A stretch of 64,000 nucleotides of DNA from Ferruginibacter sp. (GTDB lineage: Bacteria > Bacteroidota > Bacteroidia > Chitinophagales > Chitinophagaceae): assembly GCA_019638575.1 (NCBI GenBank), contig JAHBTN010000006.1, positions 111,319-175,318 of the forward strand, read 5' to 3'. Position 1 is the first letter of the stretch; every line of letters starts with the position of its first letter. The translations under genes and the position numbers were made by a program. Below the pieces are notes generated by a model. It was not told the origin of the DNA and did no database searches. It was given only the letters and a program-made list of their open reading frames with translations. This document shows, one piece after another, positions 1,248 through 2,885 of this stretch.

Positions 1248-1270
1248 AAAATGAAATTGTTGATTTTAAT

Positions 1271-1525
1271 CTATTCAGTTGAGCTACCAATCAACCGCTC
1301 TATCATCCTCTTACTTTTCCAACGTTTAATCTCATACTCCCTCTTACGGGCTTCATCATTTGTTTCAAAATATTGACTGAAGACTACAATCCAGTCTTTA
1401 GCCTTTGCTGTATGGCCTTTGTGCATTTGTAAATGACGTTCCAGTCTTTCTTCTACAGTAAGAGATGTTGAACCTACATAATAGGAACCCAAACTTTCAG
1501 CATATAAAATATAACAAAAGGGCAT
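1271..1525 (-). CDS. Stand-alone GIY-YIG nuclease domain protein
   Basis: An 84-residue single-domain protein of the GIY-YIG/UvrC-N type. The first strand motif reads CYILYAESLGSYYVG, giving the YIL and YVG half-motifs about ten residues apart; the downstream Arg (EERLERH) and the Glu in the helix with KREYEIKRWKS fit the family's catalytic positions. The gene starts at the T-run of the tRNA-Arg terminator. Its 3' end is odd: the last five codons (G-S-S-T-E) and the TAG stop lie in a 17-bp stretch, 1271-1287, that is identical to the D-arm region of the neighbouring tRNA-Arg (1607-1623). Substrate and role are unknown; family members include homing and repair nucleases. Confidence 0.88.
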   Translation of the reverse strand: MPFCYILYAESLGSYYVGSTSLTVEERLERHLQMHKGHTAKAKDWIVVFSQYFETNDEARKREYEIKRWKSKRMIERLIGSSTE

Positions 1526-1551
1526 AAAAAAAGCACCGGTTTAAAGTGCTT
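1525..1551 (-). terminator. Rho-independent terminator after tRNA-Arg
   Basis: On the minus strand the 6-bp stem AAGCAC/GTGCTT (1531-1536 with 1546-1551) has a 9-nt loop and is followed by a run of T. It lies directly 3' of tRNA-Arg, and its T-run abuts the ATG of the GIY-YIG gene. Confidence 0.75.
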
Positions 1552-1555
1552 ATTG

Positions 1556-1629
1556 TGACCCCGTCAGGATTCAAACCTGAAACCTTTTGATCCGTAGTCA
1601 AATGCTCTATTCAGTTGAGCTACGGGGCC
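1556..1629 (-). tRNA. tRNA-Arg (anticodon ACG)
   Basis: A full cloverleaf can be drawn. The acceptor stem is GGCCCCG with CGGGGTC (one G-T pair), there is a standard D-arm, the anticodon stem is TTTGA/TCAAA with loop CTACGGA (anticodon ACG, U33 present), and the T-stem is TCAGG/CCTGA with loop TTTGAAT. The discriminator base is A and CCA is not encoded. The gene is 74 nt. ACG is the usual bacterial anticodon reading CGN arginine codons after deamination of A34. Confidence 0.93.
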
Positions 1630-1650: not shown

Positions 1651-1725
1651 TTTTTTAGAAGGATTCGAACCTAAAACCTTCCCGACCTGTGGTCGGGATG
1701 CTCTATTCAGTTGAGCTACGGGGCC
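1651..1725 (-). pseudogene. tRNA-Arg relic with a palindrome in place of the anticodon arm
   Basis: The first 28 nt (minus strand from 1725) are identical to the adjacent tRNA-Arg through GAGCAT. The anticodon arm is then replaced by a perfect inverted repeat, TCCCGACC-TGT-GGTCGGGA on the plus strand (1680-1698, 8-bp arms). After that comes AGGTTTTAGGTTCGAATCCT, close to the tRNA-Arg T-arm. The 3' acceptor strand is A-rich and cannot pair with GGCCCCG. Read as a tRNA, position 33 would be C rather than U. It is therefore not a working tRNA but a degenerate or remodelled copy. Confidence 0.8.
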
Positions 1726-1772
1726 AATTTTTTTTGGAGGGCAAAGATAGGATTTTTAACTATCTGTACAAA

Positions 1773-2885
1773 TTACAAACCATTTAAAAATTCAGTATGT
1801 ATATAATCAACTACATCTACCAGGCTTTTTGATTTTTCATAAACTTTAATCTGGCGGTCTGCCCCGGTACCTTCTTCCAGTATTTTGTGTGCATGGTTTA
1901 TGGCATGCCTGCTACCTAAATCGGGTACCACATCATCAATAAAATCCAATAATTCATAAATTAAAACACGGGTATTCACTTCAGTTTCTTTTCCAAAATC
2001 TATCATGCTTCCATCAATGCCATAGCGGCTGGCACGCCATTTATTTTCGTTTAATAAAGCACGGGAATACATCATAAAATTTAGGTTTTGGCTGCGTAGT
2101 TTATACAGCTTTGCACATATAGCCTGGAAAAGTGCAGCAATAGTAATGGTTTCCTGTACTGTTAAAGGCACATCGCAAATCCTGAACTCAACAGTGTTAA
2201 AGAAAGGATGTACTCTTAGGTCCCACCATATTTTTTTTGCATTGTCAATACAATTTGTTTTTACCAAAAGCTTAATGTAGTTATCATAAGCTTCTATGCT
2301 GTCAAAAAAATCGGGGATACCGGTTCGTGGAAATTTATCAAAAACTTTTGTTCTAAATGATTTATAGCCTGTAGTGCGTCCTTCCCAAAATGGCGAATTG
2401 GTACTTAATGCATAAATATGTGGTAAAAAATAACGGGCCGAGTTGGCAATATGTATAGCCATTTCACGGTTTTCCATTCCCACGTGTACATGCAATCCAA
2501 AAATAAGGTTGCTGCGTGCAGCTTCCTGTAATTCGTTTACAATTTCGTTGTACCGTACATGTTCGGTAATTAACTGGCTTTCCCAGTGGCTAAAGGGATG
2601 TGTACCGGCAGCACCAACCCAAAGCCCCAGTTCATCGGCAATGCCACTGATTGTTTTACGCAATGTACCTACATCAATAAAAGCTTCATCAATATCCTGG
2701 CAAATATCTGTTCCTACTTCCACCACTGCCTGGTGCATCTCGGCCTTTACTTTATCTTTAATTACTTTCTGGCCTTCCTGTACAATTTTTTGGTCATGGC
2801 TTTTAAGCTCCCTTGTTTGAGGATCTATAACCATATACTCTTCTTCTACACCAAGTGTAAAATGTTTGTAAGATAAATTTGCCAT
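1773..2885 (-). CDS. Carboxylate-amine ligase, GCS2 / YbdK family
   Basis: 370 residues, the usual length for YbdK-type glutamate-cysteine-ligase-2 proteins. The N-terminal FTLGVEEEYMVIDP is the family signature (metal- and ATP-binding glutamates). Further conserved elements are FGLHVHVGM (about residue 130), SARYFLPHIYALSTNSPFWEGR and WWDLRVHPFFNTVEFRICDVP. The fold joins an amino acid or other carboxylate to an amine with ATP; the natural substrate of this branch is generally unknown. The gene lies directly after the ATP-grasp gene on the same strand with a 6-bp gap, so the two are almost certainly co-transcribed. It could act in a gamma-glutamyl or small-peptide pathway rather than in glutathione synthesis. 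Confidence 0.9.
   Translation of the reverse strand: MANLSYKHFTLGVEEEYMVIDPQTRELKSHDQKIVQEGQKVIKDKVKAEMHQAVVEVGTDICQDIDEAFIDVGTLRKTISGIADELGLWVGAAGTHPFSHWESQLITEHVRYNEIVNELQEAARSNLIFGLHVHVGMENREMAIHIANSARYFLPHIYALSTNSPFWEGRTTGYKSFRTKVFDKFPRTGIPDFFDSIEAYDNYIKLLVKTNCIDNAKKIWWDLRVHPFFNTVEFRICDVPLTVQETITIAALFQAICAKLYKLRSQNLNFMMYSRALLNENKWRASRYGIDGSMIDFGKETEVNTRVLIYELLDFIDDVVPDLGSRHAINHAHKILEEGTGADRQIKVYEKSKSLVDVVDYIHTEFLNGL

Follow-up and report, generated by a model that had tools for sequence, protein, structure and literature searches.

A tRNA-linked GIY-YIG nuclease gene with a palindrome-bearing pseudo-tRNA in Ferruginibacter, and a possible selfish element of bacterial tRNA genes

tRNA genes serve as sites for integrative elements, which restore the tRNA, REP palindromes go together with RAYT transposases, and homing endonucleases of the SegB kind have a DNA-binding module separate from the catalytic domain. 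GIY-YIG homing endonucleases encoded near tRNA genes are already known in phages, and SegB of phages T4 and T6 is such a free-standing enzyme, its gene lying beside tRNA genes (PMC13096335, PMC2988022). SegB cuts inside tRNA genes and, in phages that escape the Septu defence, drives tandem repeats of tRNA-Tyr with a C-terminally truncated segB; the repeats involve microhomology between the 5' end of the tRNA and the 3' end of segB (PMC13096335). SegB-type genes accompany various tRNA isotypes across phages, some of which infect Bacteroidota (PMC13096335, PMC2988022), and how SegB spares its own genome is called an open question (PMC13096335).

The locus described here lies in a window of 64,000 nucleotides, the whole stretch of Ferruginibacter DNA analysed, and comprises the following features.

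1741..1779, minus strand: promoter-like sequence of the Bacteroidota type (TTTG ... TATCTTTGC), found by reading, 5' of the relic and tRNA
1657..1725, minus strand: pseudo-tRNA (tRNA-Arg relic), Rfam tRNA score 19.8 bits over 1658-1718
1680..1698, no strand: palindrome TCCCGACCTGTGGTCGGGA, standing where the relic would have its anticodon stem-loop, found by pattern scan
1555..1629, minus strand: intact tRNA-Arg(ACG), found by ARAGORN, Rfam score 62.5 bits
1526..1551, minus strand: terminator-like hairpin with a T run, separating the tRNA from the start codon (ATG) of the nuclease, found by reading
1271..1525, minus strand: GIY-YIG nuclease gene, 84 aa, UPF0213-like, PF01541 E 9.8e-16
1270..1287, minus strand: tRNA-derived 3' end of the nuclease gene (D-arm sequence GTAGCTCAACTGAATAGA), 18-nt identity to tRNA-Arg

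The order along the minus strand is promoter-like sequence, tRNA-Arg relic, intact tRNA-Arg(ACG), terminator-like hairpin, the ATG of the GIY-YIG gene, and the tRNA-derived 3' end. The promoter-like sequence, a putative assignment made from what we take to be the Bacteroidota consensus, is identical at the corresponding place in a sister genome (locus L207, genome G268). ARAGORN reports a single intact tRNA at the locus, tRNA-Arg(ACG) at 1555-1629, and the relic scores below the Rfam tRNA threshold of 29 bits. The 5' acceptor strand and D arm of the relic are complete, its anticodon arm is replaced by the palindrome, and its T arm and 3' end have decayed; the orthologous relic at L207 has another loop. 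The palindrome is perfect (TCCCGACC-ACA-GGTCGGGA), and its pattern has one match in the whole window (1680-1698) and none in 100 shuffles.

The preliminary description of this DNA noted a 17-mer, CTATTCAGTTGAGCTAC, occurring three times, and exact copies are indeed present at 1271-1287, 1607-1623 and 1703-1719; a chance origin was considered and rejected, the dinucleotide-shuffled window giving 0.12 matches with three mismatches tolerated. The accompanying claim that the gene ends in tRNA-Arg sequence encoding S-S-T-E-stop is confirmed by ORF translation and by the 18-nt identity: the final codons S-S-T-E-TAG are D-arm sequence of tRNA-Arg, and the stop is the TAG of the tRNA. This tRNA-like end (1270..1287) is probably what is left of a tRNA copy that lay downstream. 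The palindromic anticodon arm of the relic and the hairpin ahead of the ATG are additions to the preliminary description, which mentions neither. It had further been suggested that the nuclease gene had inserted into, or been duplicated with, a tRNA; the duplication holds and a simple insertion does not, as the gene lies within a duplication that spares one intact tRNA. The relic, which had been described as a tRNA fragment bracketing the gene, is present here but is not tied to this gene copy, since an orthologous relic of the same kind is found in G268, which lacks the gene. Thus one half of what had been named as evidence against the proposal, a tRNA fragment in strains without the gene, is observed.

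The likeness to SegB lies in a GIY-YIG gene beside tRNA genes, in tandem units of tRNA and nuclease, in a joint between nuclease 3' end and tRNA 5' end like that in the window, and in the same puzzle of how the element spares its own tRNA. SegB is found in phage genomes, whereas the units described here lie on bacterial chromosomes, and the available parts of the SegB accounts contain no isotype-specific clades, pseudo-tRNA copies or palindromes (PMC13096335, PMC2988022). With integrative elements the locus shares the use of a tRNA gene as a site and the keeping of the tRNA, but the window unit has no integrase gene (the ORFs in 1248-1772 are the nuclease and one 41-aa ORF only), the unit period is mostly 290-443 bp, and the duplicated piece can begin in the anticodon or D arm and extend beyond the tRNA end. 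The likeness to REP/RAYT systems is that short genomic palindromes are statistically linked to a nuclease gene; the unit nevertheless has no Y1 (HUH) transposase, its only protein being of the GIY-YIG type, and its palindromes lie within tRNA stem-loops.

The nuclease scores 58.3 bits against PF01541 (curated cut-off 22.6) with residues 2-72 of its 84 covered, and the Pfam search found neither a second family nor a separate DNA-binding module. SegB is the larger protein. Residues Y16, R27, H31 and E63, whose catalytic role we presume from I-TevI, are invariant in 19 of 19 family sequences, and H31 is nearly invariant in another set of 16. Among solved structures the family profile matches 1ZG2 (E 7.2e-13), 1YWL (5.3e-11) and, weakly, SLX1 (E 1e-4). 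An AF2 model (pLDDT 80) has its best Foldseek match to 1ZG2 at E 5e-3, with SLX1, UvrC and I-TevI weaker and zero matches at E 0.001 or better. The nearest solved sequences and structures are thus the UPF0213 proteins BH0048 (1ZG2) and EF2693 (1YWL), which are alike in size and fold; UPF0213 is, we assume, COG2827, no tRNA association has been described for these proteins to our knowledge, and none appeared among the literature matches listed. SLX1, which works with SLX4 in repair, resembles the window protein as a GIY-YIG nuclease of branched DNA with a weak profile and a weak fold match, and we know of no report of it as mobile or tRNA-linked. Searches of PHROGs, NCBIfam and PADLOC gave weak matches only, homing and group I intron endonucleases included. 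That the window gene came from a phage or a plasmid was also considered and set aside, as tblastn with the window protein at E 0.001 found no match in 50,697 phage and 72,556 plasmid records.

Linkage to tRNA extends throughout the genus. The window protein has 57 matches in 59 same-genus genomes, its own included, and with the flanks of all 57 read, a tRNA or tRNA fragment lies within 400 bp of 55: 54 of 56 scored above every reversed-tRNA decoy, and L258 was added by ARAGORN (intact tRNA-Met 114 bp downstream). The panel included the tRNAs of the loci themselves, the decoys being the same panel reversed, and only L017 and L029 had no tRNA match above decoys within 400 bp. HNH nuclease loci of the same genomes, put through the same test, were tRNA-linked in 1/30 (30 of 31 matches were used; six of the 30 are on short contigs and were scanned round the middle). 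The reversed-tRNA decoys rule out chance as the cause of the linkage and of the tRNA-derived gene ends described below.

Beyond the genus, a profile of 19 family proteins finds matches in 132/198 Bacteroidota genomes, counting the best 28 scored candidates per genome. An intact tRNA lies within about 420 bp in 27 of 28 newly examined phylum loci, which are best hits, one per genome, and not a random sample; the 28th (L044) has a palindrome-bearing tRNA-Ala relic directly downstream and another approximately 1 kb upstream (L132). A scan of named genomes for the Asn-type unit finds the same layout in many Patescibacteria, as well as in Ignavibacteria and in further Bacteroidota. Fourteen Patescibacteria genomes, a biased set picked for holding an Asn-type unit, have 1-14 family matches each (83 in total), and of the 29 loci scored 25 are tRNA-linked (L290 barely above decoys) and four are without a link; the intact tRNA, where present, is downstream in 20/22, and the partners are Asn, Lys, Ser, Arg, Cys, Val, Gln and Ala tRNAs, among others. 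Together the Bacteroidota and Patescibacteria units occupy about 20 isoacceptors.

A second stand-alone GIY-YIG gene in the genome of the window (L002, C36:33371-33580) follows a fragment like a tRNA 3' end and a terminator. An apparent tyrosine integrase gene, recognised by eye, adjoins this fragment, which gives the impression of a unit interrupted by an integrative element.

The protein lineages keep their tRNA kind rather than their host, as indicated by a tree of 155 domains (78 columns, with many unresolved forks) and by pairwise identities. Identical domains that recur, fragments, and units lacking a same-strand tRNA within 700 bp do not enter the tree and relic counts (38/155). With all 117 remaining units there are 36 changes of isoacceptor label vs 78 when labels are shuffled, with one unit per locus (100 units, 20 isoacceptor labels) 35 changes vs a minimum of 64 in 200 shuffles, and in the genus alone (40 units) 16 changes vs a shuffled minimum of 25. 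Within the genus, mean identity is 52% between proteins of different genomes that lie beside the same isoacceptor (61 pairs) and 39% between proteins of one genome that lie beside different isoacceptors (17 pairs; p 0.003, the pairs not being independent). Changes of target are nonetheless many, and Asn alone is spread through several clades.

Two layouts are found among the 117 distinct units with a partner tRNA. In Type I (84 units) the tRNA is upstream and is followed, usually after a terminator, by the gene and the relic; in Type II (33 units) the relic comes first, then the gene, and the tRNA is downstream. The 84/33 split and the isoacceptor labels are approximate, because ARAGORN takes some relics as tRNAs (L018, L021, L032 and L153 among them). 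The copied piece after the gene extends at least 10 nt past the tRNA end in 34 of 72 pairs with the tRNA at most 120 bp upstream, and several copied pieces reach the start of the nuclease domain (L065, 74/75 nt; L072, 94/96; L055, 65/66). These genes therefore lie between direct repeats of the 3' part of the tRNA, the terminator and the spacer. Many Type II genes extend into the intact tRNA at its 5' end.

The preliminary description proposed looking for tRNA-derived 3' ends in related GIY-YIG genes, and these proved frequent: 57/155 ORFs end in tRNA-derived sequence vs 0/155 with reversed tRNAs, at a score of at least 13, the lowest without decoys (63 vs 4 at a score of 12, and 86 vs 32 at 10). 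The commonest places of the stop codon are tRNA positions 8-9, in 18 units, and 19-22, in 24 units, and such ends are the general form of the S-S-T-E-stop of the window.

One account of this arrangement makes the nuclease a harmless passenger, with tRNA loci duplicating through unequal exchange and small genes surviving there on the tRNA promoter. Tandem duplication could explain both the repeats and the variation in copy number, and many Type I units have the gene placed after the terminator of the tRNA; set against this, HNH genes of the same genomes are not linked to tRNAs and the protein clades track tRNA isotype across genomes, and we consider this account quite unlikely.

Arrays of two to eight units are common, with the period given above and a few up to 900 bp. 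That they are artefacts of draft assembly was rejected, as arrays are also present on single-contig genomes of 3.3-4.8 Mb (G245, G189, G227). In the 8-unit array of L064 (G111:C34:5800-11200) the head keeps only the 3' part of tRNA-Met, the relic examined has two TCCGCC palindromes, and an intact tRNA is absent from the 5.4 kb examined. Pseudo-tRNA units also occur without a nuclease, as two upstream copies at 72-bp spacing before intact tRNA-Ala (L131) and before intact tRNA-Val (L253), and at L067 pseudo-tRNA-Asn copies approximately 68 bp apart are interspersed with three nuclease genes. Between the genome of the window and its sister G268 a Thr unit and a Pro unit each differ as single vs double (L140/L251 and L142/L252), with no nuclease gene within the stretches read.

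The orthologous site of the window gene could be followed through the neighbouring GCS2 gene, the protein of which is 100% identical (rounded) in G268. In a sample of the best-scoring 30 of 82 places, which is not a random one, an intact same-strand tRNA-Arg(ACG) lies within about 230 bp after GCS2 at 18 loci, and the nuclease is present at two, in the window genome and G017. It is absent from 13 loci readable well past tRNA-Arg, a pattern that fits loss as well as gain; L223, whose contig stops at the tRNA, and L224 and L233, which stop 66 and 119 bp beyond it, were not counted as empty sites. By coordinates, G006 and G008 also have the nuclease at the same GCS2 place. G268 lacks it and shares the upstream relic, the palindrome of which has another loop there. 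Some of the nuclease-less GCS2 loci hold other tRNA-derived pieces, clearly so at L207 and L217.

Five carrier tRNA-Arg sequences were compared, over the tRNA sequence only. That of L260 is identical to five non-carriers, those of L219 and L008 equal that of L223 (of indeterminate carrier state, its contig ending at the tRNA), and those of L206 and L261 match none. An obligatory alteration of the carrier tRNA is not seen, on thin data (five carriers), given the identity of L260, and neither, thus, is the classical rule that insertion makes the site immune. Set beside homing endonucleases of the SegB kind, the family has its genes at or beside the presumed target, as 55/57 linkage and the isotype clades attest, the tRNA being the probable target of cutting; it has orthologous sites with and without the gene at the GCS2-tRNA-Arg locus; and a consistently altered carrier allele was not found among the five carriers.

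At L207 (G268, after GCS2) and L217 (G043) the host tRNA-Arg is truncated at the T arm, and after it comes a second, complete tRNA-Arg of another sequence (GGCTCTG...), which has a terminator of its own. This looks like another kind of element, one that brings a whole replacement tRNA.

Palindromes are a frequent property of the broken tRNA copies. By an automatic position rule a GC-rich palindrome lies at the relic in 79/120 units with a partner tRNA (including a few false positives, such as L007 and L032) and none does in 41/120. On the relic side, 300 nt contain a non-terminator palindrome of any sort in 94/120 units vs 9.2 expected from dinucleotide shuffles, and in 5/48 flanks of HNH loci; for TCC...GGA palindromes the figures are 74/120 on the side of the broken copy vs 0/48. 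Across 56 Type I relics the distance from the right palindrome edge to the tRNA end depends on the isotype, being 27 nt in 12/15 Met units, 31 nt in 4/6 Val units and 17-25 nt in 9/9 Asp units, with Asn and Ser edges scattered; the spread of edges within isotypes is 220 vs a minimum of 240 in 5000 shuffles, a contrast that related units inflate. The palindrome thereby occupies the anticodon arm in Arg and Val relics, lies 3' of the anticodon in Met relics and is displaced toward the T arm in Asp relics. In the Patescibacteria Asn units read as examples the palindrome is in the D loop. At L258 (G057:C80) a pseudo-tRNA-Met with palindromes in both the D loop and the anticodon loop precedes the nuclease gene and an intact tRNA-Met, and L040 and L159 likewise have two palindromes in one relic.

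The number of TCCCGA palindromes correlates with that of nuclease matches across 198 genomes (rho 0.50, vs -0.10 for a control with the reversed-sequence palindrome); within-family permutation reaches the correlation in 0/2000, although it is significant in only two of six families tested alone. That the palindromes are purely general hairpins was considered and rejected on the reversed-sequence control, which gives 0-5 in most genomes; it is, however, high in G193 (40), G071 (33), G090 (17), G130 (14) and G075 (11), and on account of these genomes and of the two families in six we use the control argument as weak support only.

These observations suggest a reading in which the palindromes are themselves mobile DNA, TCC...GGA hairpins entering tRNA stem-loops with the aid of the GIY-YIG nuclease and the tRNA duplications being a by-product. 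The excess on the relic side, the relics with palindromes in two arms and the rise of genomic TCCCGA palindromes with nuclease number all speak for it. Many of the genomic sites are nevertheless outside tRNAs, most of the palindromes listed in G227 belong to another sequence class, seven genomes have at least 10 TCCCGA palindromes without a nuclease match, the correlation is significant in two of the six families taken alone, and both non-tRNA sites compared between the sisters G000 and G268 are flanked by other differences; we judge this reading unlikely.

Palindromes of this kind were also seen elsewhere. Palindrome TCCCGATAGCTATCGGGA lies inside an apparent nuclease gene at L135 (G122:C44:276900-278800), where there are three tandem unit copies; members of the same family lie within apparent protein-coding sequence at L134 (G235:C4, by eye) and as dispersed repeats at L136-L138 (G251), reaching 102-120 per genome (G251, G069). 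At L256 (G268:C2, 25998-26015) a palindrome outside tRNA lies between direct repeats of approximately 32 bp, so that, as in the tRNA relics, a tandem duplication has a palindrome close to its joint.

The retained stem-loops also raise the question of whether RNA is the substrate, the nuclease being an isotype-specific toxin that cleaves tRNA or a tRNA-like RNA and the hairpin pseudo-tRNA a decoy or antitoxin. Isotype specificity would be expected of such a toxin, the palindrome retains a stem-loop in place of a tRNA arm at a position that varies by isotype, and pseudo-tRNA copies are retained without the nuclease. The other profile and fold relatives (SLX1, UvrC and I-TevI) are nonetheless DNA nucleases, many relics lack one tRNA half and so could form no cloverleaf, and tandem arrays and direct repeats require a process at the DNA level. 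We consider a toxin improbable, the least probable of the explanations given here.

Observation establishes linkage to tRNA, isotype fidelity, duplication that spares one tRNA, tandem arrays, presence and absence at orthologous sites, and palindrome-bearing spare copies. The explanation that we favour, and think rather probable, is that the nuclease gene and the flanking tRNA copies together form a unit of a selfish element borne by tRNA genes, whose nuclease would cut the cognate tRNA gene and whose cassette would be amplified by repair; it is best read, by analogy, as a chromosomal and tRNA-isotype-specific counterpart of phage SegB. The small GIY-YIG nuclease, specialised for one kind of tRNA, would probably cut within that tRNA gene, and repair from a locus holding the unit, or between tandem tRNA copies, would insert or amplify a cassette that joins a portion of the tRNA, often together with its terminator, to the nuclease gene. 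Since tRNA sequence travels with the cassette, one tRNA would be kept intact and the second copy be free to decay, in agreement with the anatomy observed, in which a hairpin-forming palindrome often replaces one stem-loop of the spare copy and the nuclease ORF, as in the 57/155 ends described above, often enters the adjoining tRNA copy and stops at the conserved TAG of the tRNA. The nuclease-less pseudo-tRNA units may be derivatives.

The small tRNA-targeting mobile unit envisaged in the preliminary description thus gains comparative support from the 55/57 linkage, the isotype clades, the gene-less tRNA-Arg orthologs and the arrays; cleavage and transposition we infer. Several findings count against a selfish element: the protein consists of the catalytic domain alone, with no DNA-binding module recognised, 2/57 genus loci and 4/29 Patescibacteria loci are unlinked, 41/120 units have no relic palindrome, the L064 array has no intact tRNA in the stretch examined, and the carrier tRNA-Arg need not be altered.

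The palindromes are outside what the selfish-element model predicts. A more far-reaching proposal, which we regard as doubtful though less so than the alternatives above, is that nuclease and nuclease-less pseudo-tRNA units spread via tRNA genes as a categorically new mobile system, in which a tRNA-specific GIY-YIG enzyme would open stem-loop DNA and TCC...GGA hairpins would be installed, both killing and protecting the spare copy; its lineages would keep one kind of tRNA over large distances, in Bacteroidota and in the reduced genomes of Patescibacteria.

In the open-access literature the matches listed include no tRNA-linked GIY-YIG genes in bacterial chromosomes, no palindrome-bearing pseudo-tRNA, no such palindromes and no nuclease-less derivatives. 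A related motif could lie within the candidate structured RNAs of PMC2864571.

Many small genes annotated as 'GIY-YIG nuclease' have so far been without explanation, and where flanks were read most family matches in Bacteroidota and Patescibacteria are tRNA-linked. If the selfish-element explanation is true, these genes would be a tRNA-bound selfish element with a target predicted for each lineage, pseudo-tRNA arrays would have an origin, and the amplification mechanism described for SegB in phage in 2026 (PMC13096335) would be extended to bacterial chromosomes. It raises the question of how an essential tRNA whose site is unaltered can be home to such an element. Should the enzymes cut as we propose, they would be natural nucleases of approximately 85 residues with some 20 tRNA-gene specificities.
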